IMG/VR virus record: IMGVR_UViG_3300047509_000106 | Coordinates: 1-64,000 of that record | From: a virus | Strand: one strand, 5' to 3' | Length of the DNA: 64,000 bases | In this document: in pieces, positions 23,351-59,393 of the stretch | How the letters are laid out: every line of letters starts with the position of its first letter | How positions within the stretch are numbered: the first letter of the stretch is position 1 | The notes under the pieces: generated by a model | Seen by the model: only the letters and a program-made list of their open reading frames with translations | The model's database searches: none | Told to the model about the DNA's origin: nothing | Translations under genes and position numbers: made by a program

Positions 23351-23397
23351 TGACTCCTCCATATCTTGTGCTTCGCTCTTTTTGTATCATTATTGCC

Positions 23398-25481: not shown

Positions 25482-25973
25482 ATGCCGACCTGCCTCTACA
25501 TCCGCGGCATTCCAGGGACGGGCAAGCGGACCGTCGCCGATATTCTCGAACGCGATCTACGCTGGCCGGTGCTGTGGGTCCATCACTTCGACGCGGTGTA
25601 CAAGGCGATTGGCGAGTACAAGTGTCCCGCGTTGACGGATCGATTGATGGAGGACGTTGCCAAGTACATGTCACGAACAAAGCGTGATTTCATCATCGTT
25701 CGCCCCAGTCGCGACGGGGTTTCCATTCAGCACGTCCAGGATGCGCTTACCAACTATCGTTTCATCCCCATCCGCCTCACCGCCAGCTACAAGACGCTCT
25801 GCACGCGCGTCACCCGCCGCTGGCACGAATCCGAGTTCCGCATCACCACGAAGGAAGCGCTAGACGAATATCTTGCTACCCGCCCCGAATCCGTGTTTCC
25901 ATCGGAGCACGTAATCGACACGGACCATCTCACGCCCGAACAAGTGGCAGGGCGGATCAAGGAATTGCTGTGA
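25482..25973 (+). CDS. P-loop nucleotide kinase-like protein
   Basis: 163 residues. Walker A is GIPGTGKR at residues 7-14; the usual Ser/Thr after Lys is Arg here, with Thr next. Later HFDAVYKAIGEY, RDFIIVRPSRDG and a C-terminal HVIDTDHLTPEQVAGRI fit a small kinase of the adenylate/shikimate type. It may phosphorylate a sugar or nucleotide for the neighbouring nucleotidyltransferase; this is inference from context. Confidence 0.65.
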   Translation: MPTCLYIRGIPGTGKRTVADILERDLRWPVLWVHHFDAVYKAIGEYKCPALTDRLMEDVAKYMSRTKRDFIIVRPSRDGVSIQHVQDALTNYRFIPIRLTASYKTLCTRVTRRWHESEFRITTKEALDEYLATRPESVFPSEHVIDTDHLTPEQVAGRIKELL

Positions 25974-26425
25974 GCAAGATTCACACGCTCGATACGCTCG
26001 CCGAGGCGGTTGCGGAACACCGACGCGAAGGCGCGGTAGTCGTCATGGCTCATGGAACTTTTGATCTCCTCCACGTCGGCCACACCTCCCATCTCGAATC
26101 GGCCAAACGGCTTGGCAACGTCCTAATCGTCACCGTCACCGCCGACGCCTTTGTCAACAAGGGGCAGGGCCGGCCACGATTCCATCAGCAACTTCGCGCC
26201 AAGATGATCGCCGCCCTACAGTGCGTCGATTATGTGGCCATTAACCACACCCAGACGGCCGCAGAGGCGATTGGACTGCTCAAGCCGCACATTTTCGTCA
26301 AGGGCGAGGAATACCGCGGCATTGAGGCGGAGAAAGACGCGCTGAGGCAATACGGCGGCGAGATGGAGTACGTGAGCGGGGAAGTGGTATTCAGCTCGAC
26401 TGAGTTGCTGGGCGGAGTCAAATAG
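25970..26425 (+). CDS. RfaE/TagD-type cytidylyltransferase
   Basis: 151 residues. The nucleotidyltransferase superfamily signature is clear: AHGTFDLLHVGHTSHLESAK (HxGH-type HVGH), VTADAFVNKGQGRPRFHQQL, CVDYVAINHTQTAAEAIGLL, and PHIFVKGEEY, as in the C-terminal domain of RfaE/HldE and in glycerol-3-phosphate cytidylyltransferase. It should activate a phosphorylated sugar or polyol as an NDP derivative. GTGA overlap with the kinase gene supports a joint pathway. Confidence 0.85.
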   Translation: MSKIHTLDTLAEAVAEHRREGAVVVMAHGTFDLLHVGHTSHLESAKRLGNVLIVTVTADAFVNKGQGRPRFHQQLRAKMIAALQCVDYVAINHTQTAAEAIGLLKPHIFVKGEEYRGIEAEKDALRQYGGEMEYVSGEVVFSSTELLGGVK

Positions 26426-26446
26426 ACACAACCTGGAGATGAAGTA

Positions 26447-26767
26447 ATGGCTACTGCTTTATACAGAGTCGCACGCCCTCCGACTGCAAACGCGACAGCA
26501 ATGGGGCAGGAATTACTAGCTGCCATTGAACAGCTAAGCAACGGGTTTGCTTGGTATTTGAGATTGCGGGCGGCGATTATTCAGGAACAGGACGATGTTA
26601 CGGGAACGGACACGGCGTTCGTGACCCCGGCCAAGCAGTTTGGGTTTGTGGATGCCGCTGGCGCTTTAAGCAGTGCGGTAGCACACGCCGCGTTCACCGA
26701 ATTGGATGCATTCAACACTACTTGCGCTTCAGCCTTAACTCAACTGTGCGCGAGACTCAAGCAATAA
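26447..26767 (+). CDS. Small Ala-rich structural-type protein
   Basis: 106 residues, helical and Ala/Thr-rich (MGQELLAAIEQLSNGFAWYL; SSAVAHAAFTELDAF). Good Shine-Dalgarno (TGGAGATGAAG). It directly precedes two surface-type genes, so a virion role is possible but unproven. Confidence 0.6.
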   Translation: MATALYRVARPPTANATAMGQELLAAIEQLSNGFAWYLRLRAAIIQEQDDVTGTDTAFVTPAKQFGFVDAAGALSSAVAHAAFTELDAFNTTCASALTQLCARLKQ

Positions 26768-26769
26768 TT

Positions 26770-28002
26770 ATGCTCCTGAGATTGCTGCTCATGGCGTTCA
26801 CGATTTCATCGTCGGTCGGTACGGCGCAGGCGGCTCCGACCGGCCGCTCGACGCAAGGGCATCTCGTCTACGCTGTCAATCAAGGTGCATATTGGACTTT
26901 TTTCCTTAGCTCGACAAATGCGCTTTCGGCGCTCTATTCCACTAATAGCGGAGGCGCGTGGAATACGCCTACAGGCTCGCCGTTCACGTTAGCTAACGCG
27001 CACAACTCGGAAGGGAGGAACTTCGGTTTTGCCTATGCAAACCTGTCGTCTACCGACATTTTGCACATGGCGTCGTCCTACGTTGTGGCGGCAAATGACA
27101 AGGTATATCACACTCGCTTCACACTCGGCACAACTTTAAGCAATACGAACGCGGAGGCCCAATACGATGTGACCGGGGCCACTGGAAACGAGTTGTGTTC
27201 GGGCGCTGTTTGCGCCTTAGACTCCAACGGTAAACCGATTGATGCGAGCAATTTCCAGACTTGCGGTAGCGGCTCACAAGGCAACGGCAACATATCGCGG
27301 GCCACAAATAATGATGCCGGGACGAGCTGGACGGCTGGCTACCCGAATGGAACCAACGTAGTCAACGGCGCGAGTGTAAACAAATCAAATTTCGTTTGTT
27401 CACTTGGATCAGGAAACGTTTTGTACGTCGCTGACGGTCAGGGTGACCCAACGACTTTCACGGATATTCAGTTTTCAAAATGGGTCAGTTCATGGTCGGT
27501 CACAACGACTGCTTTAGCTGGAACGGTCACGGCAACCAATGGGAATAATTGGGGCGCATGCGCCGTCACAACGTCCGACGTTCATCTTGTTGTACTGTCC
27601 AATAATTCCAACGCCTTCGTCCATCGCCGTTTCAACGGGACGAGTTGGTCGAATAGCAGCGGAGCGCCAGGGGCACTGACACTGAATACTTCGCCGTCGG
27701 GCATCGCATTGGTTTCAGATAACACGAACCTTTATGCGGCGGCAATCGATTCGTCAAAGAACATCAAGGTCAACACCTGGACTTCGGCAGGCGGCTGGGC
27801 CGGCTGGACGACTCTTGAAACGGCAAGAACAAATACGCCGAGCTACATCACCGGCGTTTACAATCCGACCTCCAACGAAATCATGTGGGCGTGGACAGAG
27901 TTGAACGGAACGCAGCACGATATCATCGGCAGCGTACAGACATTGACTGCTCCCACCGTGAACATCTGCCACTTGATAACTACTGCTGGCATGGCGTTTT
28001 AA
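26770..28002 (+). CDS. Exported beta-propeller-like surface protein
   Basis: 410 residues. A signal peptide is visible: MLLRLLLMAFTISSSVGTAQA, cleavage after AQA. The rest is rich in Ser, Thr, Asn and Gly with repeated strand-turn patterns (FVCSLGSGNVLYVADGQGD; VVLSNNSNAFVHRRFNGTSW; SDNTNLYAAAIDSSKNIKVN) like a sialidase or lectin-type propeller. An export signal on a protein in the structural operon is odd; it may coat the lysogen or bind the envelope. Confidence 0.65.
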   Translation: MLLRLLLMAFTISSSVGTAQAAPTGRSTQGHLVYAVNQGAYWTFFLSSTNALSALYSTNSGGAWNTPTGSPFTLANAHNSEGRNFGFAYANLSSTDILHMASSYVVAANDKVYHTRFTLGTTLSNTNAEAQYDVTGATGNELCSGAVCALDSNGKPIDASNFQTCGSGSQGNGNISRATNNDAGTSWTAGYPNGTNVVNGASVNKSNFVCSLGSGNVLYVADGQGDPTTFTDIQFSKWVSSWSVTTTALAGTVTATNGNNWGACAVTTSDVHLVVLSNNSNAFVHRRFNGTSWSNSSGAPGALTLNTSPSGIALVSDNTNLYAAAIDSSKNIKVNTWTSAGGWAGWTTLETARTNTPSYITGVYNPTSNEIMWAWTELNGTQHDIIGSVQTLTAPTVNICHLITTAGMAF

Positions 28003-28014
28003 CAGGACGGTGAA

Positions 28015-30330
28015 ATGGCCGCGACCGTCGTACCAGTCCAGACAACCGCGACCGGCTCGGGTGCTCCCGTAGCCGTCGATTCGGTTGGCGGCGCGGACTA
28101 TCAGCAGGTCAAGCTGGTCGGCGGCGTCATCGGCGACACGACGCCGATCGGAGTGACGAGCGGAGTTCCAGGCGGCACGACTGCGGGCATGATCGTCGCC
28201 GTGGTCCCCGGTGTCTCGGTCAGCGCTCAAGTCTCAGGAACAGTCACGGCGAACGTCAGCGGCGCAGTCAGCGTCTCGGCGATGCCGGCAGTGAATATCT
28301 CCGGCATCACGCCAGTCACGACGGCCGCATCCGTGTCTGTGAGCGGTGTTCCGGTATGGCTAAACCCCACACAAGCGGTCAACGTCGGCAGCATCGTCAG
28401 CACGGTTTTGGTTAATGTCGTGGCGGGCGGGGCGGGTGGTGGGTCGGTAACAACTGCGCCGCCGTCCATTTCTCAATCGGGTCAAGCTGTTTGGATCGTC
28501 GGCGGGCAGGGCACGACAGCGAATCCGGTGGTAGTCACTGGCACTGTCGCGGCAGGCGCTGGCACAACTGTCGTCAGCATCCAGGGCATCGTCCCGGTTA
28601 CGACAGCGGCGAGCGTGTCCGTATCCGGCCTGCCAGTGTGGCTAAATCCTACCCAACAGGTTGTCGTCAGCGGGCTCGTCGGTCACAGCATCACGGGCAG
28701 CGTCAATATCGTTTCAACGGCCATCGTCAGTCTTGCAACGGGCGGAAGTGTGACGCTTGTGGGGACCGTCGGCGCTAGCATCATCGCGGCCGTGTCTCTT
28801 AGCGGCATCACGCCCGTTGCGACCCAAACCTCAGTGTCGATCAGTGGCGTGCCTGTGTGGTTTGCACCTGGAGCTTTGGTCGCTGTCAGCGGGACTGGAG
28901 TTGTGACGCTGGCGACGGGTGGGACACTGGCGACATTGCTAGGCACAGTCGCGGTGAATGTCGTGGCCGGAGGCGCTGCACCCGGAACTACGGCAACCAC
29001 GCAAACGAACGTTACGGCTCAGGTGGTGTGGTTGGCACCGACTCAGACGGTCAACGTGACTGTGTTGAGTACGGCCGTGGTGACGCTCGCGACGGGTGGT
29101 TCTGTTACTCTGGTTGGCTCGGTTGGCATTTCTCATGCGGCCATTGCAAGTGTTGCCGCCACGAGCGGCCCACCGCTGTTCAGTGCTTTTGGCGTTCCGG
29201 TTTGGATTGTGGGCGGCCAGAGTGTGACCGCAGCAGCGACACCTGTTCTTGTTACGGTCATAGCCGGTGCCCCAATAACAATCTCAGGAATCGTACCTGT
29301 CACGACCGCCGCGAGCGTGAGCGTGACTGGACTTCCGGTGTGGCTCAATCCGACGCAAGCTGTCAATGTGGGCAGCATCGTCAGTACCGTACTCGTCAAC
29401 GTAGTGGCTGGCGGAGCCGGTGGAGTCGTGAGTATTAGCGGCGTAGTTCCAGTGACAACCGCCGCGTCAGTCTCGGTTACGGGCTTGCCTGTCTGGCTCA
29501 ACCCGACGCAAACGGTGATTGTCGGCAGCCAATTGGGAACGGCGGTTGTCACGCTGGCTACAGGCGGATCGGTAACACTGGTTGGTACGGTCGGCGCTTC
29601 GGTGATTGCCGCGATTTCAATAAGCGGCATCGTTCCAGTTACAACTCAGGCCAGCGTCAGCGTCACCGGCCTGCCCGTCTGGCTAAACCCGTCGCAAAGC
29701 ATCGTGATGGGGGCCATGTCCATCTCGGCCATCGTGCCCGTGACCACCGCCGCGAGCGTCAGTGTTACAGGGCTCCCTGTTTGGTTGAATCCTACACAAA
29801 CCGTGGTCGTAAGCGGCGCGGTTGTCGCAGTGACGACACAATCGAGCGTCACTGGCGCGGCGATATGGCTCGCACCGACGCAAACCGTCGTCATGCAACC
29901 GAGCGCTGGCATTGCCTTCCTCATGCGCGTGACTTCGACCGCTGTAGCCGTCAGCGCCAATGCCTATCTCGCTACGGTCAACACGGGTGGAACTCTTGCT
30001 GTGGCCGGAACGAGCCTTTACGTCGTGCCGGCTGGTAAGAACTTGCGGATTGCCATGATTCAAGCTGCCTGGAATAGTTCGGCGGTGACGGGCGGATCGA
30101 TTATGTTCGTGCCGGTAGCCGCCGGGAATGCCGCATCCCTTGTTTCCGGGAGCATTCCGACGCAAGGCCAGCCGTTGCTCCTGTTGGGAATTGTTTCGGC
30201 TGGCGTGACGGCTGGGCTTATCATGGGCGCACAAGCAGACATAGGCGCTGGCTCGACGATAGCGCCGTTCATCATCGCCTCGACTGCCGGCCAGCTCGTA
30301 TCATTGGTCATATCCGGTTATCTGTTCTAG
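28015..30330 (+). CDS. Large Val/Ser/Thr-rich repeat protein (fibre/adhesin; possible glycosylation target)
   Basis: 771 residues built largely of a degenerate unit of about 30: G-I-[TV]-P-V-T-T-A-A-S, V-S-V-[ST]-G-[LV]-P-V-W-L-N-P-T-Q, then VxVGS. Around eight to ten copies are seen, six with PVTT; others degrade to PVATQTS or AVTTQSS. Intervening blocks repeat VVTLATGGSVTLVGTVG. The N-terminus (GGADYQQVKLVGGVIGDTTP) is like phage virion proteins. The last 130 residues are non-repetitive and end hydrophobic (SLVISGYLF). It lies between the two GT41 genes. A virion fibre or surface adhesin is inferred. Confidence 0.7.
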   Translation: MAATVVPVQTTATGSGAPVAVDSVGGADYQQVKLVGGVIGDTTPIGVTSGVPGGTTAGMIVAVVPGVSVSAQVSGTVTANVSGAVSVSAMPAVNISGITPVTTAASVSVSGVPVWLNPTQAVNVGSIVSTVLVNVVAGGAGGGSVTTAPPSISQSGQAVWIVGGQGTTANPVVVTGTVAAGAGTTVVSIQGIVPVTTAASVSVSGLPVWLNPTQQVVVSGLVGHSITGSVNIVSTAIVSLATGGSVTLVGTVGASIIAAVSLSGITPVATQTSVSISGVPVWFAPGALVAVSGTGVVTLATGGTLATLLGTVAVNVVAGGAAPGTTATTQTNVTAQVVWLAPTQTVNVTVLSTAVVTLATGGSVTLVGSVGISHAAIASVAATSGPPLFSAFGVPVWIVGGQSVTAAATPVLVTVIAGAPITISGIVPVTTAASVSVTGLPVWLNPTQAVNVGSIVSTVLVNVVAGGAGGVVSISGVVPVTTAASVSVTGLPVWLNPTQTVIVGSQLGTAVVTLATGGSVTLVGTVGASVIAAISISGIVPVTTQASVSVTGLPVWLNPSQSIVMGAMSISAIVPVTTAASVSVTGLPVWLNPTQTVVVSGAVVAVTTQSSVTGAAIWLAPTQTVVMQPSAGIAFLMRVTSTAVAVSANAYLATVNTGGTLAVAGTSLYVVPAGKNLRIAMIQAAWNSSAVTGGSIMFVPVAAGNAASLVSGSIPTQGQPLLLLGIVSAGVTAGLIMGAQADIGAGSTIAPFIIASTAGQLVSLVISGYLF

Positions 30331-30339
30331 GAGACTCGT

Positions 30340-32127
30340 TTGCCAGTCATCCCCTACATGATCGTCCCTCAACAGGGTAGCGATCAAGCCGATGAATGGT
30401 TGCGCCTCGGCATGGCCGCGCAGCAAGCGAACAACCTGCCATTGGCTCAGCAAAACTACAACCAGGCGCTGCGACTCGATCCACGGCACGCACTGGCGAT
30501 GAACAATCTTGCCATTGTGTTCGCCCAATCGAATTTGCTGAACGAAGCGCTCTTGACCATCGAACGCGCGGCGATGTGCGACGGTGTGCACGGCGTCATT
30601 CAGATGAATTGGGCGCTGATGGCAATGGACGCCGAGCGACCAGATGAAGCGGTCGATCACGCAAAGCGTGCTTGTGAAATTGCGCCCGATGATCCGAATG
30701 CACAACTTGCCCTGGCGATGATCGGACCGGCAGCGGGACTGGCGGATGAGACAGTCGAGCTCTATCGCAAGATTCTCGACAAGGAGCCGGCCAATCCTTC
30801 GGCCGGCCCGAATATCTGCTTCGTGCAGACTCTCACCGATGCCACGCCGGCCGAGATGTTGGCGCAGCGAAAGAAATGGTACGAGGCGAACCGATTCAAG
30901 GGCACAATCGAGCCGTATCGCAATGACCGCAATCTAGACCGACCGCTCCGCATCGGTTACGTCGGTGGCGACTTCAAATCACATTCCGCCTCTTTCATTT
31001 TCGGCCGCGTCGTGCTGCACCATTCGTCGGCGTGCGAGGTCTACCTGTACTCGTCGCTGCCGGTCGATCCAAATGCGGACGTGATGACGAAACGGTTCAG
31101 CGAAGCGGCAGGTCCGCGCTGGCGCGACATCGCCACGATGAACGACGAGGATGCCGCGGCACTCATTCGCAAGGATCGCATCGATATTTTGGTTGATCTC
31201 GCGGCGCACACCAACGGCGGACGACTGGCACTATTCACGCGCAAGCCCGCGCCAGTGCAAGTCACCGCCTGGGGGTTCGCTCATGGCACGGGCTTACCGG
31301 AAATCGACTACTTCCTCGCCGACAAGGTAAGCGTTCCCGAAGACGAGCGGCAGCACTACGCCGAAAAGATCATCGACCTGCCGTGTCTGCTCACGATGGA
31401 AGAGCCGGCGCATTACAACCTCAAGGCGACTTCCCATCCACCTCTGCGCAAGAACGGCTATTTCACTTTCGGCGTCTACGCTCGGTACGAAAAGGTCAGC
31501 GACAAGTGCCTCGCGACGTTCGCGGAGATTCTGCGCCGCGTGCCGGACAGTAAGATCGAATTCAAGGACAATGCTTTTCGACGGCCGTATTCGTGCCGGC
31601 GTGTCATGGAGATAATGCAGTACAAAACGATTTGCAAAAGCTGCCGGGGGATCGGCTGCGATAATTGCGAGCGTGGCGTCAAAGGCGTAATGCAATGCAA
31701 TAGCGAATTCCCGATCAACATCGCACCGGAGCGGTTTCTATTTTCGACGGCCACGAATCATCCGGATCACATGCTCGCCTATCAAATGGCTGACCTCATA
31801 CTTGATCCATTCCCTCATTGCGGCGGGATTGTGTCACTTGAGGCCATCTATATGGGATTGCCGATTCTGACCCTCTACGGCAACAAGCCAGCCGGTCGGA
31901 ACACGTCGAGCGTACTCACGGCGATGGGCCGTACCGAGTGGATCGCTCGCACACCAGAGGAGTACATTGAGAAGGCTGTGGACCTCGCCGAGAACGGCGT
32001 TCGCGAACTGGCGAAGGCACGTCAGTCGTTGCGGCAAGAACTATTGGAATCTCCGGTCGTGAAGGGGTATGTTGAGAAGGTCGAAGAGGCGTATCGCCAA
32101 GCATGGCGGGAGTGGTGCGAGAAGTGA
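30340..32127 (+). CDS. O-GlcNAc transferase-like glycosyltransferase (TPR + GT41), copy 2, with zinc-knuckle insert
   Basis: 595 residues, alignable by eye with the protein at 23398 along its length. TPR part: WLRLGMAAQQANNLPLAQQN, LNEALLTIERAAMCDG. Catalytic part: GYVGGDFKSHSA, VDLAAHTNGGRLALFTRKPA, YFTFGVYARYEKVSDK, HPDHMLAYQMADLILDPFPH, SLEAIYMGLPILTLYG. Unlike copy 1 it carries a cysteine insert near residues 430-446, CKSCRGIGCDNC, resembling half of a DnaJ zinc domain (CxxCxGxG). TTG start with TAGGAG 6 nt upstream; it aligns with the start of copy 1. Confidence 0.9.
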   Translation: MPVIPYMIVPQQGSDQADEWLRLGMAAQQANNLPLAQQNYNQALRLDPRHALAMNNLAIVFAQSNLLNEALLTIERAAMCDGVHGVIQMNWALMAMDAERPDEAVDHAKRACEIAPDDPNAQLALAMIGPAAGLADETVELYRKILDKEPANPSAGPNICFVQTLTDATPAEMLAQRKKWYEANRFKGTIEPYRNDRNLDRPLRIGYVGGDFKSHSASFIFGRVVLHHSSACEVYLYSSLPVDPNADVMTKRFSEAAGPRWRDIATMNDEDAAALIRKDRIDILVDLAAHTNGGRLALFTRKPAPVQVTAWGFAHGTGLPEIDYFLADKVSVPEDERQHYAEKIIDLPCLLTMEEPAHYNLKATSHPPLRKNGYFTFGVYARYEKVSDKCLATFAEILRRVPDSKIEFKDNAFRRPYSCRRVMEIMQYKTICKSCRGIGCDNCERGVKGVMQCNSEFPINIAPERFLFSTATNHPDHMLAYQMADLILDPFPHCGGIVSLEAIYMGLPILTLYGNKPAGRNTSSVLTAMGRTEWIARTPEEYIEKAVDLAENGVRELAKARQSLRQELLESPVVKGYVEKVEEAYRQAWREWCEK

Positions 32128-32591
32128 TTCAACTCGAAGCGCGTTCACTGCCGTCTACCACGCTCGCCAACGGCATCCTGACCGTCAAACCGTCCGTATC
32201 GCTTCATCACAACATCTATCAAGCCGTCATAGAACAAGTGGGCAGCCAGTTGAAAGTGTCGGAGTTCGCGCTAGGCAATCATCAAGTTCCCATCGGTATC
32301 ACGTTCGTCGCGTCTGCTGACGTGAAATTACTCGTTATGCACGGCAACATTCACGGATACAACATCCTGACCAATGATACGGGCAAGGCGTGCTGGCTCG
32401 TGGGAGGCAACTTGACCGACGCACTAACGGGCGGCAGTGGATACAACACCATCGATGGTCGTGGCGGCGAGGATCACGTCTTTCTGACGAATGGCGGCGT
32501 GTCGGTGCTGACTGGCGATAGAGACGTGGTTGTAGTCGGTGCGAAGGATATATGGAGCGGCGGGGCGCATGAGAAGGTGTATCCAGTATGA
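32124..32591 (+). CDS. Small protein with RTX-like Gly/Asp turn region
   Basis: 155 residues. GTG 32124 (GTGA overlap) gives MIQLEARSLPSTTLANGILT, a form common at the start of planctomycete surface proteins; ATG 32103 is an alternative. Near the C-terminus TGGSGYNTIDGRGGEDHVFL resembles one or two calcium-binding RTX turns. It may be a surface or secreted component. Confidence 0.6.
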   Translation: MIQLEARSLPSTTLANGILTVKPSVSLHHNIYQAVIEQVGSQLKVSEFALGNHQVPIGITFVASADVKLLVMHGNIHGYNILTNDTGKACWLVGGNLTDALTGGSGYNTIDGRGGEDHVFLTNGGVSVLTGDRDVVVVGAKDIWSGGAHEKVYPV

Positions 32592-33220
32592 CGAATCACA
32601 CGCCCGAATCGCTCATCGCCTTCAGCAACCGCGTCCGCGATGCCTTTCTCGCCAAGCAAATTCGCTGCCCGGTCCACTTTTGCTCCGACACGCAGGCCGG
32701 TCCGCTCGTTGAAATCTTCAAGCACATCGCGCCAACCGACTGGGTATTCTGTACGTGGAGGAATTCTTTTCATGCCTTGCTTAAGGGCATCCCCAAAGAC
32801 GAACTGTTTCAGATGATCGTTGACGGCCGCTCCATGTTCATCATGTCGAAAGAGCATCGCTTCTTTTGCTCATCAATAGTCGGCGGGATATTGCCGATTG
32901 CGCTAGGTGTGGCGGCGGGGATCAAAAGGAATCGGGAAAACTACTATGGTGATTGGCCAGCGCCGGACAGGGAATGGGGACTGGTCCATGTGTTCGTGGG
33001 CGACATGTGCTCCACCACGGGCCTGTTTGCCGAATTCAGCCGATATGCAGAAGGTCACGATCTGCCCGTTAGAATTGTCATTGAGAACAACGATTTGAGT
33101 ACGAACGCACGGACGCGAGACGTATGGGGGCATGGACAATGGCAACCGGATCGGCATCACTACTACACGTACAAGCGGACACACCCGCACGTCGGTCTAC
33201 TCGAAAAAGTCAGCTTCTAA
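32588..33220 (+). CDS. Thiamine-diphosphate enzyme, E1-alpha/transketolase N-terminal-like
   Basis: 210 residues. The TPP-binding motif is recognisable: GDMCSTTGLFAEFSRYAEGH followed by DLPVRIVIENNDLST (GD...N-N spacing about 28). Upstream HALLKGIPKDELFQMIVDGR and SIVGGILPIALGVAAGIK fit the E1-alpha fold. Together with 33403 it makes a compact two-subunit TPP enzyme. Such split transketolase-like pairs occur in glycan clusters; the reaction here (C2 transfer or decarboxylation) is not known. Confidence 0.8.
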   Translation: MTNHTPESLIAFSNRVRDAFLAKQIRCPVHFCSDTQAGPLVEIFKHIAPTDWVFCTWRNSFHALLKGIPKDELFQMIVDGRSMFIMSKEHRFFCSSIVGGILPIALGVAAGIKRNRENYYGDWPAPDREWGLVHVFVGDMCSTTGLFAEFSRYAEGHDLPVRIVIENNDLSTNARTRDVWGHGQWQPDRHHYYTYKRTHPHVGLLEKVSF

Positions 33221-45502: not shown

Positions 45503-46006
45503 GTGCGTGACGTGACAGGCATAGGGCATTTCATCGGCGAGTATACGCTGCACGAGCCGGGCGACGGCGACGGCATCAAGGCCGACGATTTCCTACTCGT
45601 CGCGAACAAGTTAGAACCGTTCGCCTTCGTTGATACCGATGGAAAAGTCATCATCACCATTGACGAGTCGTTCATCACCGACGGCGCGACAACGCCGTGG
45701 TTCCTACAGTCGGTGCCGTGGCTCAGGCGCTACGGGCGGATCAGGCGAGCGGCGTTCTGTCACGATTGGGCTTGGACTTTACACCACCTGGGACGCGAGT
45801 TGTTCGGGTTCTGGAAATCGAACGCGATGTTCTACCGTGCCTGTCGCGTTTGTGGATTGTCGGTCTTTGAAGCCGGTACATGCTGGCTGGCCGTCACCCT
45901 GTTTGGCTGGCCGATGTGGATGGGGAAAGAAAGGTGCCAAGCTAAGGCACGGGCAAAAGTCAATATCGCTGGTGTCGTCATGCGACAGAAAGGCATAGTC
46001 AGATGA
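45503..46006 (+). CDS. DUF1353 family protein
   Basis: 167 residues. The family core is clear: ESFITDGATTPWFLQSVPWL, then RIRRAAFCHDWAW with the conserved HDW, then a hydrophobic stretch (LAVTLFGWPMWMG). DUF1353 proteins are common in phage lysis and tail regions; their role is unknown. GTG start (45503 or 45512); stop overlaps the protease gene. Confidence 0.8.
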   Translation: MRDVTGIGHFIGEYTLHEPGDGDGIKADDFLLVANKLEPFAFVDTDGKVIITIDESFITDGATTPWFLQSVPWLRRYGRIRRAAFCHDWAWTLHHLGRELFGFWKSNAMFYRACRVCGLSVFEAGTCWLAVTLFGWPMWMGKERCQAKARAKVNIAGVVMRQKGIVR

Positions 46007-47235
46007 TCGAAGCACACACGGCTTTCACCGGATTCGCTCGACCGTACTTCCATATTCTCGACACTCATTTCCGCCTGCCGCGGTCGGTGACGATCAGCTA
46101 CACGCCGGACCAGCTAGCCGGCCTCTACTCATTCCCGGTCAACGTCAAGGGACCGGACATGACCATCGGCATCATCGAACTTGGCGGCGGCTACAAGCCA
46201 TCAGATATTCAGGCGGCGTTCAGTAATTGGCGTATGCCGATGCCGACTCTCCATGACGTGAGTGTGCAGGGCGGCTCGAACTCGCCGGGCGATCCGGCCG
46301 ACATCGAAGTGATCCTCGACATTGAAATCGCCGCCGCGTGCTACTCCTACTGCACCGACAAAGCGGCCAATGTGCGAGTCTATTTCGCGCCGAACTCGGA
46401 CGCCGGCTTCGGTCAAGCAGTGGCGCAAGCGGCGATGGACGGATGTGCCACGATCTCGATAAGCTGGGGATCGGCCGAAGAGAATTGGGGGAAGACAATT
46501 TGTACTGCGTTCGATGCGATTTGCAAATCGGCGCTGGCAAGTGGTTCAACCGTCTTCGCGGCCTCGGGCGACAACCTAAGCGACGACGGCATGGGCAGCG
46601 GCGTACACGTCGATTTCCCGGCCGCGTCCCCGCATGTCGTTGGCACTGGCGGCACCGCCAAGATGTCGAACTCCGAAACAGTGTGGAACGAAGGTGGCGG
46701 CGGGACGGGCGGCGGCTTTTCTACTTTCTTCCCGTCGCAAGTATGGCAGATTGGCGCTCCATCATCGCAAGGCCGGATGGTTCCCGACGTGGCCGGCGAT
46801 GGGGCTCCATCAACAGGTTGGAAGGTTTATGCGAACGGTAACTGGATGGTAGTCGGCGGAACATCGTGCGTTGCGCCGATGTACGCCGGCTTATTCGCAG
46901 CGCTGGCTAGTGCAGCCGGAAAGAAGCTCGGGAACGTGCTGCCGATCTTGTGGCAGAATCCAGCGGCTTTTCAGGACATCGTTGCGGGCAACAATGGCAA
47001 ATGGAGAGCCACGGCCGGCCCTGACCCATGTACCGGCCTGGGCGTGCCGATCGGGACGGCGCTGCAAACGATATTCGCTGTGCCGCCACCACCGGTGCCT
47101 CCTCCTCCGGTTCCGCCGCCAGTACCTCCGCCAGTTCCGCCGCCCCCGGTTCCACCGCCGACGACATTCGACAAAACAATCAGCGTCCATGTACAGTCGT
47201 CTGACCCCAACACCAAAGTCACGGTTCATAACTGA
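46003..47235 (+). CDS. Sedolisin (S53) family serine peptidase lacking a prodomain
   Basis: 410 residues. Kumamolisin-like: SYTPDQLAGLYSFP, TIGIIELGGGY, catalytic E102 and D106 in IEVILDIE, D190 in ASGDNLSDDG, and S288 in VGGTSCVAPMYAGL. Normal sedolisins are made with a prodomain of about 180 residues; here only about 35 residues precede the mature start and no signal peptide is visible. A Pro-rich run (PPPPVPPPPVPPPVPPPVP) links to a short C-terminal beta segment. Next to holin-like genes it is a candidate lysis protease; a virion protease is the alternative. Confidence 0.85.
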   Translation: MIEAHTAFTGFARPYFHILDTHFRLPRSVTISYTPDQLAGLYSFPVNVKGPDMTIGIIELGGGYKPSDIQAAFSNWRMPMPTLHDVSVQGGSNSPGDPADIEVILDIEIAAACYSYCTDKAANVRVYFAPNSDAGFGQAVAQAAMDGCATISISWGSAEENWGKTICTAFDAICKSALASGSTVFAASGDNLSDDGMGSGVHVDFPAASPHVVGTGGTAKMSNSETVWNEGGGGTGGGFSTFFPSQVWQIGAPSSQGRMVPDVAGDGAPSTGWKVYANGNWMVVGGTSCVAPMYAGLFAALASAAGKKLGNVLPILWQNPAAFQDIVAGNNGKWRATAGPDPCTGLGVPIGTALQTIFAVPPPPVPPPPVPPPVPPPVPPPPVPPPTTFDKTISVHVQSSDPNTKVTVHN

Positions 47236-48503: not shown

Positions 48504-48848
48504 ATGAGCGAAGCAAACGCCTACTACTTCGGATGCCTTGCGAGAGTAGGCCACTACCTCTACACGCAATCAGGCGAGGTGCTTTGGAAGGACGCGCCGT
48601 TTCCGTTTCCAATCTCAAAACTTGACGGCGGGTTTTTACCCACAGGCGAGCAGGTGGAGGGAATCGTTCATCACGAAATTATCGGCGGATGGACCGTAAT
48701 CGCGTTCTATGACCGTTCGGTGGATAGTCGGCTGAACAGCAACAGCGCCTTTGTGATTCGTGGCGAAAAGACGAAAGAGGAAGCAATCGCGGCGGCTCGT
48801 TCGCTGTTCTCCGGCATCTTCGCCCGGTTCCGGTTCGAGGTTTGTTGA
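48504..48848 (+). CDS. Hypothetical protein behind structured leader
   Basis: 114 residues (EANAYYFGCLARVGHYLYTQ; GGWTVIAFYDRSVDSRLNSN; SAFVIRGEKTKEEAIAAARS). No family recognised. No Shine-Dalgarno site, since the leader structure runs up to the start. Confidence 0.6.
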   Translation: MSEANAYYFGCLARVGHYLYTQSGEVLWKDAPFPFPISKLDGGFLPTGEQVEGIVHHEIIGGWTVIAFYDRSVDSRLNSNSAFVIRGEKTKEEAIAAARSLFSGIFARFRFEVC

Positions 48849-48858
48849 AAGGTAAAGC

Positions 48859-49014
48859 GTGCGTGCTTTCGCGTGGGCTTTGATGACTGTCCTGAGTCTG
48901 TGCGGACTCGGGTTGTTGCTTTTCGGTTGGCGATACAACGAAACGCTCGCATCCGTTTTCGGAATCGGGCTGTTGGTTGTGGCGCTGGCCGTCAAGCCGA
49001 GCAGGGGAGGTTGA
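48859..49014 (+). CDS. Small two-TM membrane protein (51 aa)
   Basis: GTG start after AAAGGTAAAGC. Two hydrophobic helices (AFAWALMTVLSLCGLGLLLF; SVFGIGLLVVALAV). GGGGAGG at its end is the Shine-Dalgarno site of the next gene. Confidence 0.55.
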   Translation: MRAFAWALMTVLSLCGLGLLLFGWRYNETLASVFGIGLLVVALAVKPSRGG

Positions 49015-49016: not shown

Positions 49017-50936
49017 TTGCAACGGCATACCCTAGTCGGCCTGTTGGTATTCGCAGCGATGGCCGCAATTCTGGACGACAAGGCAAGCGCCTTCCCCACG
49101 ACTGGCAAGCAACGGCCCGTTTACACAAAAACCATTCAGCATCCCGATGTGGCGCTTCAGTCGATAATCTACCATCTCACGAACGTCGTGCGCGCCGACG
49201 ACCGGCCGTTTGTGCGCTACTTCTGGTGGGGGAGCACACCCGATGATCGTCTCGTACACGATGTCACAAACTTCTCCGTCTATCTCAACACGACAAATTC
49301 GCAGGTTCGGATCGTCTTGCCGACGCCGATTTCGGGCACTGACTTTCGCCTTTGGGCGGTCGATATTCGTGATTTGGGTTGGACAGTCAATGCTTTCGCA
49401 TCTGTGGCTCATCGTGACCGTGTTTTCACCGAACCGAACGTCGATCATTACCTTGCGGAGAAGGCGCGTCGTCTCATTGGCGTGGCGCAAGATGCTAAGT
49501 TTTTCCACGCTGAAGCTGTCGTCCCCGGCGCATGGTTCACCTGGACGGTGATGAATCCCGGTGAGTCTCAGACGGACAACTACTACGACCTCTTGTATGC
49601 CCGCGAACGATTCGGCGATGACATCATCGGCCCGCAAGTCGATATTCCTACGGCGGTCACGGCCGCGAACGTCCTCACTCCCGAGCCAGTCAAGCCAACG
49701 GGCAAGCCGTGGCCGGGCGGCGTGTGGAAAGACGACGGCAAGTATTACGCGCCTGGCTCGTTCACCTGGATTCCCATTGACGAACTGAAGCAGTGGGAAA
49801 AGGATCATGCGGCGTGGGAGCAAGCGAAGGCCAACCCGACTGCGCCGCCCGCGAAAGCGCCGGCGATTGTGCTGCCGATTGGGACGCGGTTCGACGGGAA
49901 GGCAAAGAAGAATTTCCCCGAGAACTTGCAACAGTTCCAAGATCGTTGGGGGCGCACTGCAAACCGGGCATTTCTCGATGGTCAGAAGATATTCGTTGAC
50001 AAGGGAGCCGTTGTCGCGGGCAGCTACAACAACAAAACGCGAGGTTCTTTTGTCGCTTACAACGACCGCGTGATCCGCATTCAAAACGGCGAGTTCAACA
50101 ATGGCGGCGGCAACATGGACACTCAGGACTTCGACCGCACAAGCGGCCGGAAGAATCCTGCCAATCTTCCTCTCGAAACATCGCTGGGCCAATTGCTCGA
50201 AGATGCTGGCGAAAACCTCTACACGCTGCCGAACGGACTGCAAGCTGCATTGATCCACGGGGCTGCGCCGGAACGCAAGCGCGTTGACCACGCCGACAGC
50301 AAGTTCGTTCACTCTTCGCTCGACCCGCGCGATGTCACGATCTGGGACGGATATAGCTCTTGTTGTCTATGCCATGCTCGTTCTCACGGTGTTCTCGCGC
50401 CGTCGAACAACAGAGTCAACGAAGCGAAGGCAAAGGGGCTACGGCTCAACTTCCTCAACAAGAACGATGAGCTTGTAGTTAATGGATTTTTCAAACTGGA
50501 AGATTACCGGCTTGAACAGATTCGGATGCCGTTCAAGGAAGCTCTTAAAGAGGCGACGACGCTGACAGAGGCACCGCCCTGGAACGGGACGCAGTGGGCC
50601 GAAGCGACAGTGAACTTCATTTCGTGGTTCAACGACGGAATCGACATCTATCAGGCAAGCGCCGAACTTGGCGTTCCCCCGCTTGTCACTTTGATTGCCT
50701 GTGCTCAACTGCTCGGCAAAGACAATGTTGGGAACTTCGGATCGAAAGCGATCTTTGTCAACTTCCCAATCGGTCGCGCTGAGTGGACGGACGACGTGCA
50801 GCCCGAATTGCAGAACGTGATTGCGTTAATGAGGGACATAGAGAACCCCAACCCGATACTGGCGATTTTCGCGCCCGAGTTGCTTCGCCAGATTCAATAC
50901 AGCGGCGTCGGCACAACGGAGAAAAAGAAGAAGTGA
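49017..50936 (+). CDS. Exported protein with CxxCH (c-type haem) motif
   Basis: 639 residues. TTG start 6 nt after GGGGAGG. Signal peptide QRHTLVGLLVFAAMAAILDD, cleavage after KASA. The long N-terminal part is beta-rich with aromatic residues; a Pro/Lys segment lies near 220-290; SSCCLCHARSHG (around 455-465) holds one CxxCH. This combination resembles planctomycete exported proteins with cytochrome-c-like sites. It is unusual in a phage. One haem on the outside of the membrane is inferred. Confidence 0.65.
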   Translation: MQRHTLVGLLVFAAMAAILDDKASAFPTTGKQRPVYTKTIQHPDVALQSIIYHLTNVVRADDRPFVRYFWWGSTPDDRLVHDVTNFSVYLNTTNSQVRIVLPTPISGTDFRLWAVDIRDLGWTVNAFASVAHRDRVFTEPNVDHYLAEKARRLIGVAQDAKFFHAEAVVPGAWFTWTVMNPGESQTDNYYDLLYARERFGDDIIGPQVDIPTAVTAANVLTPEPVKPTGKPWPGGVWKDDGKYYAPGSFTWIPIDELKQWEKDHAAWEQAKANPTAPPAKAPAIVLPIGTRFDGKAKKNFPENLQQFQDRWGRTANRAFLDGQKIFVDKGAVVAGSYNNKTRGSFVAYNDRVIRIQNGEFNNGGGNMDTQDFDRTSGRKNPANLPLETSLGQLLEDAGENLYTLPNGLQAALIHGAAPERKRVDHADSKFVHSSLDPRDVTIWDGYSSCCLCHARSHGVLAPSNNRVNEAKAKGLRLNFLNKNDELVVNGFFKLEDYRLEQIRMPFKEALKEATTLTEAPPWNGTQWAEATVNFISWFNDGIDIYQASAELGVPPLVTLIACAQLLGKDNVGNFGSKAIFVNFPIGRAEWTDDVQPELQNVIALMRDIENPNPILAIFAPELLRQIQYSGVGTTEKKKK

Positions 50937-51070
50937 GTCCATCCCAGCGGATGCTGCGATACGTGCAATACCTGCGGGTGTTATCGCAGCCGGCGTTTCC
51001 GCTGTCGATGCCGCGGCTGGACCGGCTGGAGTCGTACCTGATGCAGCGGATTATGAGGACCAGAAAATGA
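50933..51070 (+). CDS. Small basic protein (45 aa)
   Basis: GTGA overlap with the haem-motif gene. Helical and Arg/Leu-rich (QRMLRYVQYLRVLSQPAFPL; LDRLESYLMQRIMRT). Stop overlaps the next ATG. Confidence 0.5.
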   Translation: MSPSQRMLRYVQYLRVLSQPAFPLSMPRLDRLESYLMQRIMRTRK

Positions 51071-51450
51071 ACAACATCCCTACGGTCGTCATCGTCATTA
51101 TCGCGGTCCTGCTCGTCGGCATCTTCGTGCTGTTGCTGCCGACCTACGCTACCGCCGACCTAAAGGCAGTCGTGGACGTGGAGGACAAGCGGATCGCTGA
51201 GCGGAAGGTCTACCTGCGCTACGAATGGAGTGAAAGCGAACTGACGACGTGCGAGGCGTACCTGCCGAAAGGCGAAGTGCCGACGGAGCAATCGTGGGAG
51301 TTGCTATTCGAGAACACCGAGGTCATGCGCCAAGCGTTCCAGGTCGCGAAGCACAATCCGAACGGGCAGAAGATCACCGTGCGGGCTCGCGAGGTGCAGA
51401 CGCTTCGCGGACGGGGGTTGTTGATTGAGTCGATTAGGAGTTCGTGGTGA
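51067..51450 (+). CDS. Membrane-anchored protein
   Basis: 127 residues: one TM segment (TVVIVIIAVLLVGIFVLLLP) then an alpha/beta domain (KVYLRYEWSESELTTCEAYL). ATGA overlap upstream, GTGA overlap downstream. Function unknown. Confidence 0.6.
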   Translation: MNNIPTVVIVIIAVLLVGIFVLLLPTYATADLKAVVDVEDKRIAERKVYLRYEWSESELTTCEAYLPKGEVPTEQSWELLFENTEVMRQAFQVAKHNPNGQKITVRAREVQTLRGRGLLIESIRSSW

Positions 51451-51680
51451 GGCGTCTTCGTGGCTGGCTTGCGAGACGGTTTTACCGGGCCGCGTTCATG
51501 TGCGATGTTGAACGCGAGATAGAAGTTCGCGTCGTGCGCCAGACGGACGGGATGGTGGAATTGCGACTGGAAATCGCTTCGCTCTGGCTGGCGATTCCGT
51601 TGGGTGAAGATGAGCGCCAAGAAATCGGCAACGCTCTGTTGCTGCCTGGCGAACGGTTGACGGTGGATTTTGGAGATTGA
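51447..51680 (+). CDS. Small protein, companion of membrane protein
   Basis: 77 residues: basic start (RRLRGWLARRFYRA), then beta strands (EIEVRVVRQTDGMVELRLEI). GTG start overlapping the upstream stop. Function unknown. Confidence 0.55.
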   Translation: MRRLRGWLARRFYRAAFMCDVEREIEVRVVRQTDGMVELRLEIASLWLAIPLGEDERQEIGNALLLPGERLTVDFGD

Positions 51681-51707
51681 AAGCGGTGCCAAACGCTTTT
51701 GTCGGAG
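51681..51707 (+). repeat. AAGCG-GTGCCAAA-CGCTT leader hairpin, copy 1
   Basis: AAAGCGGTGCCAAACGCTTT with stem AAGCG/CGCTT, then a short spacer and GGAGT before ATG 51714. The same string occurs before 52762. Confidence 0.55.
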
Positions 51708-51713
51708 TCTGAC

Positions 51714-52490
51714 ATGCGAGTCTTTGTAATCGCCGTGGCGCTGGCCATACTGGCGCTGCCTATCGTTGCTCTTTCGGCGTTCGGCCAGTGCCGAACCGCC
51801 TACGCGCCACAATACTATCAGCCGACTTACCAGCAGAGCTACGCGAACTATCAGATCGTGCAGCCCGTGGCGGTCGCGACGTTCCTAGTACCGAACACTT
51901 ACTACAGCGTGCAGCCCGATCTCGCCGCTGCTCGCATCCAACAGCAAATTGCCGACGACGCTGCGGAGCGTGCGTTAGGGAAGATGTTGCAATTACTCAA
52001 GCAACAGCAACCGGTACCGGGCGCTATCCCGCCGGCCGCTGGGCAGGGAGCGCTGGCCGCGCCGCACGATCACGCGACGAGCTTGGCAACGAAGGTGCAA
52101 GCGGTCGTCGCGGCCCATTGCATCGCTTGTCACGGTGCGGGCAACAAGAACGGAATCGACCTGACCGACGTGTCGCGGCTCGATGACCGGCAGGCAATGG
52201 CCGTGCATCTCCGCACGTCGCTCGATCCGGTTGACCCGGGCTACATGCCAAAAAACAAGGCTGGTGAGAAGACGCCGGCTCTCGGTCAGCAAGAGTACGA
52301 CGACATCACGCATTGGGCCTTTGAAGTGGCGAGCAAGTTCCGCAAGGCAGCGCCGCTCGCCAAGCCGGCCGTGCCCGATAAAGCCGTCGATCCGAAGCCA
52401 CCGATTCCGCCCGCCGTCGATCCGAAGAAACCGGGCGACGATGACAATGAAGTGGCGAAGCGGAAGAAGAAAGGCCGACCAATCGGTTGA
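51714..52490 (+). CDS. Exported cytochrome c-like protein
   Basis: 258 residues. Signal peptide RVFVIAVALAILALPIVALS to FGQ. A Tyr/Gln-rich stretch (YAPQYYQPTYQQSYANYQIV), a helical part, then a cytochrome c-type domain: VQAVVAAHCIACHGAGNKNG with CIACH, IDLTDVSRLDD, DPGYMPK (Met ligand candidate) and EYDDITHWAFEV. The tail is Pro/Lys-rich. The CxxCHG...PxMP pattern is the planctomycete cytochrome C type. Located in the cell envelope by inference. Confidence 0.75.
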   Translation: MRVFVIAVALAILALPIVALSAFGQCRTAYAPQYYQPTYQQSYANYQIVQPVAVATFLVPNTYYSVQPDLAAARIQQQIADDAAERALGKMLQLLKQQQPVPGAIPPAAGQGALAAPHDHATSLATKVQAVVAAHCIACHGAGNKNGIDLTDVSRLDDRQAMAVHLRTSLDPVDPGYMPKNKAGEKTPALGQQEYDDITHWAFEVASKFRKAAPLAKPAVPDKAVDPKPPIPPAVDPKKPGDDDNEVAKRKKKGRPIG

Positions 52491-52610: not shown

Positions 52611-52639
52611 TTGGCACCGCGTTTCGCCGGCCCTATAAT
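52611..52639 (+). promoter_or_regulatory. Strong sigma-70-type promoter
   Basis: TTGGCA (52611-52616), 17-nt spacer, perfect TATAAT (52634-52639). It reads into the exported-protein gene at 52762 through a leader of about 115 nt. It is the best housekeeping-type promoter seen in the window. Confidence 0.75.
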
Positions 52640-52692: not shown

Positions 52693-52732
52693 GATGCAAG
52701 CCCCTGCGGTGCCAACGTTCCGTTAATATAAG

Positions 52733-52757
52733 CGGTGCCAAAACGCTTTCGGGAGTT
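52733..52757 (+). repeat. AAGCG-GTGCCAAAA-CGCTT leader hairpin, copy 2
   Basis: TAAGCGGTGCCAAAACGCTTTC, same hairpin as before 51714, followed by GGGAGT and ATG 52762. The core GCGGTGCCAA also occurs once more just upstream, near 52705. Confidence 0.55.
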
Positions 52758-52761: not shown

Positions 52762-53232
52762 ATGTTTCGTCTCACTTCTTTGTTTTTGGCCGCTCTGTCG
52801 ATCGGTCTCTTGGCAACGGATGCAAAAGCCTGCAATCGGGTTTGCGCCGCCGTCGCAGTGCAACAAGTCAGCTACGCTCAGCCTGTAGCAGTGCAGCAAG
52901 TCGCCCTGGTCCCCCAAGTCCAGTCCTACGCCGTGATGCCGTCCTTCGCTCAGGTCCAGGCCGTCAGCTACGCGGCACCAGTCCAGTCGTTCGCCGTCCA
53001 GTCCTACGCGATGCCGGCCTTCGCGGCTAACGTCGGCTACGGCGGGTTCTCTGGCCGTGCCTTCCCGGTCGCCGGGTTCAATGGCGGCTTCGGGGGCGGC
53101 GCTGGCTTCCGCGCTGGTGGTGGAGGCGGTGGGCTCGGGCTCGGCGGGCTGGTGAATGCAGTGGGCAACGTGGCGAACTCGCCGGCAGGTCTTGCGGCCC
53201 TCGGGTTCCTCGCCGGTCGCGCTGGTCGCTAA
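52762..53232 (+). CDS. Exported Val/Gln- and Gly-rich protein
   Basis: 156 residues. Signal peptide FRLTSLFLAALSIGLLATDA. Then repeats such as VQQVSYAQPVAVQQVALVPQ, followed by a Gly-rich end (GGAGFRAGGGGGGLGLGGLV). This composition is common in secreted planctomycete proteins; a cell-surface role is inferred. GGGAG precedes ATG. It has its own promoter and a terminator, so it forms a single-gene unit expressed apart from the late operon. Confidence 0.7.
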   Translation: MFRLTSLFLAALSIGLLATDAKACNRVCAAVAVQQVSYAQPVAVQQVALVPQVQSYAVMPSFAQVQAVSYAAPVQSFAVQSYAMPAFAANVGYGGFSGRAFPVAGFNGGFGGGAGFRAGGGGGGLGLGGLVNAVGNVANSPAGLAALGFLAGRAGR

Positions 53233-53249
53233 TTTGAGTTGATGCTGAC

Positions 53250-53278
53250 GCTCCGGCCGAAAGGCCGGAGCGCTCTTC
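53250..53278 (+). terminator. Intrinsic terminator after exported-protein gene
   Basis: GCTCCGGCC (53250-53258), GAAA tetraloop, GGCCGGAGC (53263-53271), then GCTCTTCT. A perfect 9-bp stem; the T-run is weak. Confidence 0.75.
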
Positions 53279-53279: not shown

Positions 53280-53507
53280 ATGTCAGGGCTCTTACCAGCT
53301 TGGCAAACCTGTCCGCACGATTTCCCAATCCTGCATGAGCTACGCTACCCCGACGGCGAGAAGTACGGCGTACTGGCCGTCTGCTTCCACTGTCGATGCC
53401 GGCGCGTGACCGATTGGGACGGATGGACGACGCGGTACATGCCGCCGATCCCGCGGCGAAGCGAGTTCAAGGGCGGCATGTTGCGCTGGCTGATTGGGCT
53501 GCGTTAG
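53280..53507 (+). CDS. Small Cys/His protein
   Basis: 75 residues with TCPHDFP and CFHCRCRRV, a probable zinc site. It overlaps the end of the convergent integrase gene by 4 nt. It starts right after the terminator, so its expression is uncertain. Confidence 0.5.
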   Translation: MSGLLPAWQTCPHDFPILHELRYPDGEKYGVLAVCFHCRCRRVTDWDGWTTRYMPPIPRRSEFKGGMLRWLIGLR

Positions 53508-54538
53508 GAAACGCGGTTGGCGGCTTCGCGCAACGCCTGCGCGTGAGCGCCGACGTGTGCATAGACCTGATCTATCATCGCCGTGCTTTTGTGACCTAGC
53601 AGCTCCGCGAGCATTTTCGGGTGAATCCCTGACAGAACGCCACGGGTACAAAAACCATGCCGGTAGCCGTAAGCGAAAGTTCGCCGTCCTAAGTGTTTCT
53701 TCGACATCTTCCACAACCGCATTTGGATTGCATGGGGCGTGAGCTGCCTATCACGATTGCCGCGGAATAGCGCCCCTTCCTTATGCTTCTCCCGTTGCTC
53801 GGTCATGATCGTCAGCGCCTCTTGCGACAGGTAGAGGATGCGAGATTGCCCCTTGTGCCGCGTTTTGTGCTTCTGAAGGGCAATCACTCCGTTGGCCCAA
53901 TCGGTCCCCTCTACGGTCAATCCTGCCGCTTCCCCGGGCCGACAGCCCATGCACCAACAAAACCGACAAAGTTGCCTGAAATCGCCCTTCGTTAGTTCCA
54001 ATATCCGAAGGTGGGTTTTCTCGTCGATCGTTGCCTCTGCGCCACGGGCCTCTTTCGGGGGTAGGCGTAGCTTGAAATCCTTCCGTCCGGCCCACCGGAT
54101 GAGGTTTTGGGCCTGACTGAGGTACATCCGCCTGTAGCTATTTGACCATGGCTGGGATGCAGCCTGACGCTCGATTGCGAGCGGATCGGCTGTCTGTGCT
54201 GTCGAATCGGGGAAATGCCGTCCAAACGCGTTTAAGACAATCCCCATCCACCGTAACGCCCCGGTCCCGAATCGGTGCTTGAACGTGTCGAGGTACACGG
54301 TGATCAACTCGGCCAGCGGTTCCGGTCGATAGCCTGACTGCCCAGAATTGGCCGCTGCGACGGCCTCGGTGATCATCCCCTTCAGTTTGTCGAGGTCCTG
54401 AAGTGCTGCCCACGCCCCCGCCTCATCCGACGGATCGTGAACGCCTAGACTCTTCTGTTTTCCATTGCGTGTCACTGTCCAGACTCCCGCGGTTCGCTTT
54501 CGATTCCATCTGAACCACGGGCGGCTTTTCCTTGCCAT
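53504..54538 (-). CDS. int: Tyrosine recombinase (phage integrase)
   Basis: 344 residues. N-terminal arm/core-binding part (LITVYLDTFKHRF), then the catalytic domain: R200 in GCRPGEAAGL, K around 223-225 in LQKHKTRHKG, R293-H294 in FAYGYRHGF (the first His of HxxR is Tyr), H316 in LLGHKST, nucleophile Y326 in IDQVYAHV. It should recombine attP with a host site. It lies on the minus strand with a hairpin-bearing 258-nt gap upstream where attP may be. Confidence 0.95.
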   Translation of the reverse strand: MARKSRPWFRWNRKRTAGVWTVTRNGKQKSLGVHDPSDEAGAWAALQDLDKLKGMITEAVAAANSGQSGYRPEPLAELITVYLDTFKHRFGTGALRWMGIVLNAFGRHFPDSTAQTADPLAIERQAASQPWSNSYRRMYLSQAQNLIRWAGRKDFKLRLPPKEARGAEATIDEKTHLRILELTKGDFRQLCRFCWCMGCRPGEAAGLTVEGTDWANGVIALQKHKTRHKGQSRILYLSQEALTIMTEQREKHKEGALFRGNRDRQLTPHAIQMRLWKMSKKHLGRRTFAYGYRHGFCTRGVLSGIHPKMLAELLGHKSTAMIDQVYAHVGAHAQALREAANRVS

Positions 54539-58715: not shown

Positions 58716-59393
58716 ATGACCGAAGAAAACGCATTCGCGCGAGCGATCATGTCGGCGCTAGATGACGCCGCCCCGCAGTTGGTCTACTCGGACTGGCTTG
58801 AGGAGCGCGGGCAGGAGAAATTGGCGATTGACCTTCGGCGCGGCTCAATTGTTCGCAACAATCTTTTCGACGGCTGCGGCGGCGACGGCGGCGGCGGCGG
58901 CGGCGACGGCTACGGCGGCGGCGACGGCTACGGCTGCGGCGGCGGCGGCGACGGCGGCGGCGGCGACGGCTACGGCGGCGGCGGCGGCTGCGGCGGCGAC
59001 GGCGGCGGCGGCGGCGGCGGCTACGGCGACGGCGGCGGCGACAGCTACGGCTACGGCGACGACGGCGACGGCGGCGGCGGCTTAAAACTCAAGGAGTTAA
59101 TCATCATGCAAGACGGCCTCTACATCCTCAGCATTCCGAGCGGCTATTACCCGTATGTGATCGTGGGTTGGGTAAATGTGAAGGGGCTTGAGGTAGAGGT
59201 CCGTCACGGTCGGATCATCAAGCGATTCGGCCAAAACAAATCGCTCTCCGAGTTAGCCAAAAACGGGCCGGCTACTGACACGCAATTACTCCCGGCTTCC
59301 GAACTGGAAGAATTCTGGCGAACAGCAATCAGCCGCGCCATCCCCGCCAACGAAAAGGCATGGCGAAAGCACGTGCCGAAGATTGAGGCTTGA
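58716..59393 (+). CDS. TIGR02996-domain protein with Gly-rich tract
   Basis: 225 residues. Residues 3-45 are the TIGR02996 domain: NAFARAIMSALDDAAPQLVY, SDWLEERGQEKLAIDLRR. Residues about 53-122 are a tract of Gly with Asp, Tyr and Cys (GGDGYGGGDGYGCGGGG) encoded by GGC repeats. The C-terminal 100 residues are globular (GLYILSIPSGYYPYVIVGWV; EFWRTAISRAIPANEKAWRK). ATG 58716 starts the domain cleanly. Role unknown; it is another mark of a Gemmata-type host. Confidence 0.75.
   Translation: MTEENAFARAIMSALDDAAPQLVYSDWLEERGQEKLAIDLRRGSIVRNNLFDGCGGDGGGGGGDGYGGGDGYGCGGGGDGGGGDGYGGGGGCGGDGGGGGGGYGDGGGDSYGYGDDGDGGGGLKLKELIIMQDGLYILSIPSGYYPYVIVGWVNVKGLEVEVRHGRIIKRFGQNKSLSELAKNGPATDTQLLPASELEEFWRTAISRAIPANEKAWRKHVPKIEA
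58873..59082 (+). repeat. GGC/GAC/TAC trinucleotide low-complexity tract
   Basis: About 210 nt of almost pure (GGC)n interrupted by GAC, TAC and TGC codons, in frame with the Gly-rich tract of the surrounding gene. It is prone to slippage in length; a change of 3n keeps the frame. Confidence 0.9.

Follow-up and report, generated by a model that had tools for sequence, protein, structure and literature searches.

c-Type cytochromes are rare in phages, yet there is a precedent in soxD, reported as a phage auxiliary metabolic gene (PMC8190135), in which the c-type cytochrome carried by environmental phages serves a known sulfur pathway beside soxC. Other described systems that invite comparison are the holin-endolysin-spanin lysis cassettes, the gene transfer agents (GTAs) and the PSCyt1 (PF07635) proteins of planctomycetes, PSCyt proteins having no known function (PMC5615132). 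Here we analyze a window of 64,000 nucleotides (positions 1 to 64,000 of virus record IMGVR_UViG_3300047509_000106), in which an initial annotation, made from the sequence alone, had singled out two genes for exported proteins with c-type haem motifs and had rightly called such cargo unusual in phages. Planctomycetes have an unusual cell envelope and very few of their phages have been studied; to our knowledge, cytochromes are not regarded as phage equipment. Comparative analysis gives good support to the view that a cassette encoding a core protein, a cytochrome c and a V/Q-rich protein is kept by unrelated planctomycete phages and also by an element of phage origin in the chromosome, in most cases with a protease gene nearby. 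Unlike soxD, this haem cassette lacks a pathway partner; its recurrent companions are packaging genes and proteases.

Three CxxCH motifs are present in the 107 called proteins of the window, against 0.16 expected from residue shuffling, and for the two exported genes alone the shuffling P values are 0.0004 and <0.0002. Both motifs lie where they had been annotated: the core protein (49017-50936) contains a single one, CCLCH (residues 449-453, DNA 50361-50375), and the small cytochrome (51714-52490) contains CIACHG (residues 136-141, from DNA 52119), with an axial Met encoded at 52245-52247. The two N-termini resemble signal peptides, in keeping with the proposed export. The small protein comprises a Y/Q/V-rich N-terminal linker followed by a PSCyt1-like domain, and its C, C, H, Met and Trp are invariant in an alignment with 12 planctomycete cytochrome domains, as is a Met-Pro pair that also occurs in all 14 syntenic cytochromes. 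These residues bear out the annotated small cytochrome c pattern, and on the strength of that motif pattern (CxxCH plus axial Met) the protein is a class-I-type cytochrome c. The Pfam scores for Cytochrome_CBB3 (PF13442; 21.8 bits, E 2.5e-4) and PF00034 (16.6 bits) fall under the respective cut-offs of 27 and 21.3, which, together with the loss of host-type histidines from phage-type cores and the failure of structure prediction, would be compatible with CxxCH being a metal or disulphide site, without haem, in structural envelope proteins. Such an interpretation appears improbable, however, in view of the complete class I pattern (CxxCH, MP, W) that the small protein shares with PSCyt1-type domains and of the invariance of CxxCH in the cores. 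The third CxxCH (CVLCH) belongs to a methyltransferase (21005-21655) without a signal peptide; it is probably unrelated to the cassette and probably represents a metal site or a chance occurrence.

Relatives of the window proteins were revealed by whole-genome searches only: scanning viral contigs and genomes with the window proteins one at a time, tblastn of the core, cytochrome and window protease against a phage collection, and searching viral contigs with a phage-type core profile all returned nothing. A class-wide search located, in genome G536, a closer core relative that shares its contig with a tape-measure gene. Two contigs of this genome (L189 and L237), which overlap by exactly 127 bases, together encode core, cytochrome, V/Q protein and a matrixin protease, and the cassette lies within the tail operon of a tailed phage. 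In genome G591, where the core relative adjoins portal, TerL and TerS genes, the order core, small exported cytochrome c and V/Q-rich exported protein is the same as in the window, and each of the three window proteins finds its best match in its counterpart there (E 4e-7, 9e-6 and 5e-4). The same order is found in LR756511, a 595-kb uncultured phage detected by tblastn with the G591 core (E 4e-28; locus L239, LR756511.1 473314-494756). This phage is similar to records of a study of huge phages (PMC7162821) and may be one of them. A profile built from three cores recovered further phage-type relatives. Counting the window, 16 loci have readable sequence downstream of the core; in 15 of them the core is followed by a small exported protein that has CxxCH and a later MP, and in 14 by a V/Q-rich exported protein. 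While a phage cytochrome as such is already known from soxD, the conserved cassette, the phage-type core family and their occurrence in a GTA-like cluster as well as a huge phage appear to be new, since neither the phage-type core nor the phage-type cytochrome has a PHROG match. The recurrence of the same gene set in other viruses and in a domesticated remnant makes the cassette look like a working part of these viruses and not a stray host gene.

In Pfam, PHROGs, NCBIfam and the PDB the core itself matched nothing convincingly, but a whole-genome search identified relatives in 18 of 95 Gemmataceae genomes. These host-type proteins are exported; a PSCyt1 cytochrome at the N-terminus is followed by a core of ~400 residues, which carries the second CxxCH (nearly all members have two such motifs), and then by WD40, TPR or other C-termini. 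The window core aligns with their cores end to end at 24-29% identity, with C449, C452 and H453 invariant, and the phage small cytochrome resembles PSCyt1-type domains. In contrast to the host proteins, the phage core stands alone, without a PSCyt1 module or C-terminal repeats, the cytochrome is a separate gene, and the phages add the V/Q-rich third gene. A profile of other planctomycete cytochromes gives the phage cytochrome 56 bits and that of the host-core PSCyt1 module 32 bits, a comparison biased by the selection of the first set by similarity; the splitting in two of one host di-haem gene is not supported as such. Among 20 host-type neighbourhoods, the only other CxxCH gene seen encodes a 984-aa protein. 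A virus record perhaps of Poribacteria (IMGVR_UViG_2740892559_000001, locus L104) carries a full-length host-type PSCyt1-core protein with leucine-rich repeats, encoded between the tape measure and other tail-like genes.

Phylogenetic analysis separates 18 phage-type from 18 host-type cores by a single branch (support 99/99), whereas an earlier tree without the phage-type relatives had shown the window core only as a long isolated branch. CxxCH is conserved in all 18 phage-type cores, in which the three host-type His columns retain His in 0, 0 and 1 sequences and one of these columns is Tyr throughout. It is also conceivable that exported proteins of this kind form a coat on the envelope or modify it, so that other phages are kept out or adhesion is changed, with the haem motifs serving folding or stability. 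In favour of this, all three proteins look exported, and the V/Q-rich one resembles surface-type low-complexity proteins. We nevertheless judge surface modification or superinfection exclusion unlikely, for CxxCH is the sole Cys/His motif fully kept in the phage-type cores and the axial Met pattern is kept in all cytochromes, both of which point to redox or haem chemistry.

The initial annotation had also suggested that the genes might have been picked up from a host by transduction, and had named host DNA next to a decayed phage as a finding that would refute its reading. The presence of homologous host-type proteins in the same bacterial group lends some colour to recent capture, but both ideas are now extremely improbable unless this record and all the other loci are chimaeras. 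The source record spans 67,404 bases and its first 127 recur exactly at its end (67278-67404); hence it is a circular assembly, the genome of a temperate phage of ~67.3 kb, and this exact repeat rules out host DNA flanking a phage remnant. The record encodes TerL, a portal, a capsid protein, a beta clamp and a tyrosine integrase, and the haem region lies inside the phage because late genes enter it from the left while the integrase and early genes lie to its right. Its tetranucleotide composition is ordinary for the phage (0.937, against 0.87-0.96 for other stretches); the genes are phage-borne, as annotated. The low identity to host relatives and the 99/99 branch rule out recent transduction, in agreement with the cassette order common to unrelated phages; no close host relative of the core was found among 95 Gemmataceae and 398 class genomes. 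The proposed planctomycete link did hold: TIGR02996 domains are present at 17749 and 58722 (proteins 17518-18309 and 58716-59393), their relatives occur almost exclusively in Gemmata-like planctomycetes, and they therefore indicate that the host is probably such an organism.

The cassette order is also found at about a dozen planctomycete chromosomal loci. At ten of these (L192, L224-L227 and L230-L234, from Planctomycetia), ParB, ATPase, TerS, TerL and portal genes adjoin the core gene, with TerL identities of 55-71% and phage-gene matches to PHROGs down to E 3e-69; G591 also matches head decoration and head-protease types. Host flanking genes, namely a moaB-like gene (63-80% identity) and a second gene, are common to seven genomes, which suggests vertical descent of a GTA-like, phage-derived element. 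The cluster resembles GTAs in its TerS, TerL, portal and head genes and its conserved host flanks; it is recognized here from its genes, a GTA being an element that packages and transfers host DNA. We know of no counterpart of the haem cassette in known GTAs. The cluster is a candidate gene transfer agent, so far unreported, or else a domesticated planctomycete prophage, and none of the literature matches evidently dealt with a gene transfer agent of this group. That phages as different in size as the 67-kb temperate phage and the 595-kb phage, together with an apparently vertically inherited cluster, have the cassette in the same order suggests that envelope haem chemistry matters to planctomycete phages. 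A cultured isolate, Gemmata sp. IIL30 (locus L236; G001, C5:468000-484000), appears to carry the core and cytochrome pair near a KilA-N gene, in a probable prophage, making the idea testable.

Proteases of unlike classes share this setting. S8 proteases adjoin the cassette in 10 loci, the one at L226 matching the PHROG of the window protease (PHROG 3677, E 3.4e-84), while the G536 enzyme is an M10 (matrixin) protease with a peptidoglycan-binding domain, and this variety hints at a shared need for proteolysis. A weak C1 (papain-family) match was also seen just upstream of the LR756511 cassette. The cassette recalls the holin-endolysin-spanin lysis cassettes in its late-gene position and its association of a protease, in one case with a peptidoglycan-binding domain, with envelope-directed proteins. 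Cytochromes, however, have no known part in such systems, and a lysis role for the haem cassette would be conjectural. Endolysins are normally cell-wall hydrolases, and none was matched among the window genes scanned, where a protease and small membrane proteins are present. The annotated placement between a lysis region and the integrase (minus strand) holds as to position, although no canonical gene for lysis was identified.

A mechanism can be proposed in which the three cassette proteins would exit by Sec and the cytochrome c maturation system of the host (ResB is present in 31/31 Gemmataceae genomes) would attach haem at the CxxCH motifs of both the core and the small cytochrome. With its His/Met pair, the latter could act as redox partner and electron carrier for the core, whose haem, lacking the host-type histidines, may be an open catalytic site, and the V/Q-rich protein may anchor or space the two in the envelope. 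A role in envelope redox chemistry, as first suggested, is plausible. Since the cassette is found in the company of late, tail or packaging genes, with proteases of more than one class beside it, it would most likely serve to modify or open the planctomycete envelope while particles are being made or released, and less likely have a part in the general metabolism of the host. We consider it an even call whether this whole explanation, a phage-type exported haem cassette modifying or opening the envelope, is correct. The broader proposition that planctomycete phages, giant ones included, and the GTA-like element use an exported cytochrome pair and a protease to breach or remodel the envelope is put forward only tentatively; we know of no counterpart of such a haem-based release or entry system.

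Several observations speak against this explanation. The window protease lies 1.8 kb from the core gene and proteases are not found at every locus; L224 keeps the core without the cytochrome and V/Q genes; structure prediction was uninformative (pLDDT 42 and 30); and the branch of the window core is very long (3.2 changes per column), which makes the exact placement of this core unsure, as is the finer placement of the likewise long-branched G536 core. Furthermore, at L235 (G531:C116) a protease-core-cytochrome-V/Q cassette is surrounded by host genes (by eye valS, folK and panC) and the 16 kb read there contain no head genes, so that the link to particles is not absolute, and the window cassette lies near the integrase with what look like a promoter and terminator of its own. 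The last two observations also fit lysogenic conversion, in which cargo expressed from the prophage would alter the envelope redox chemistry or respiration of the lysogen to the benefit of both host and prophage, with no lytic role. The cassette among host genes and the promoter-terminator pair around the third gene (a consensus scan placed these moron-type signals around that gene only) keep this the main rival, and the position of the G591 cassette, at the edge of a phage-derived region adjoining host genes, is in line with it. Still, locations in a 595-kb phage, in the G536 tail operon and beside packaging genes in ten loci would be odd for pure cargo, and we regard lysogenic conversion as possible but doubtful.

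The features of the region are listed below. The protease shows sedolisin-like motifs by eye and no signal peptide. A Pfam and PHROG scan of the 48498 reading, in the frame of the first small gene, produced no match. The insertion in the core has a weak match to locus L099 that looks like a decayed fragment and was set aside. The hairpin element GCGGTGCCAA(AA)CGCTTT precedes two exported genes, with a further partial copy at 52706-52717; it is absent from the 172 other loci in which it was sought, and the hairpins match no Rfam family.

Table. Features of the cassette region (window coordinates)
Feature	Position	Strand	Evidence
Subtilase-clan serine protease, candidate cassette partner	46003..47235	+	Pfam PF00082 (S8) E 7.8e-7; PHROG 3677 protease E 1e-5
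Small protein, first in tightly coupled gene run	48504..48848	+	Gene call
51-aa membrane protein, stop 2 bp before core gene	48859..49014	+	ORF call
Exported phage-type core protein, 639 aa	49017..50936	+	Alignment with host relatives, tree, syntenic relatives
91-residue insertion in core (residues 195-285), not in host-type cores	49599..49871	+	Alignment
Membrane-anchored 127-aa protein between core and cytochrome genes	51067..51450	+	No Pfam family
Small protein between core and cytochrome genes	51444..51680	+	ORF call, Pfam scan
Hairpin-forming element AAAGCG-GTGCCAAA-CGCTTT, just upstream of cytochrome gene	51683..51699	+	Repeated at 52732-52749
Exported cytochrome c, 258 aa (by motif pattern)	51714..52490	+	CIACHG and axial Met pattern, Pfam scan, profiles, alignment
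Sigma-70-like promoter TTGGCA-17-TATAAT	52611..52639	+	11/12 consensus match
V/Q-rich exported protein, cassette gene 3	52762..53232	+	Same-position homologue in G591 (E 5e-4); same position in G536 and LR756511
Strong terminator-like hairpin, closes cassette	53249..53272	+	z -3.8
Tyrosine integrase	53504..54538	-	Pfam PF00589 E 3e-16; PHROG 1 E 4e-31

Elsewhere in the phage, no attB or tRNA integration site was found when looked for. The terminal repeat is rich in direct and inverted repeats of the CCGTAACG type and adjoins a replication-initiation gene (169-1020), and is probably the replication origin. One TIGR02996 protein is encoded between the head protease and capsid genes. Within the structural module, positions 21005-33220 encode two paralogous proteins with TPR and glycosyltransferase family 41 domains and a radical SAM/SPASM protein, together with the methyltransferase mentioned above, a cytidylyltransferase, an AAA kinase-like protein and an E1 dehydrogenase-like protein, a possible virion glycosylation set.

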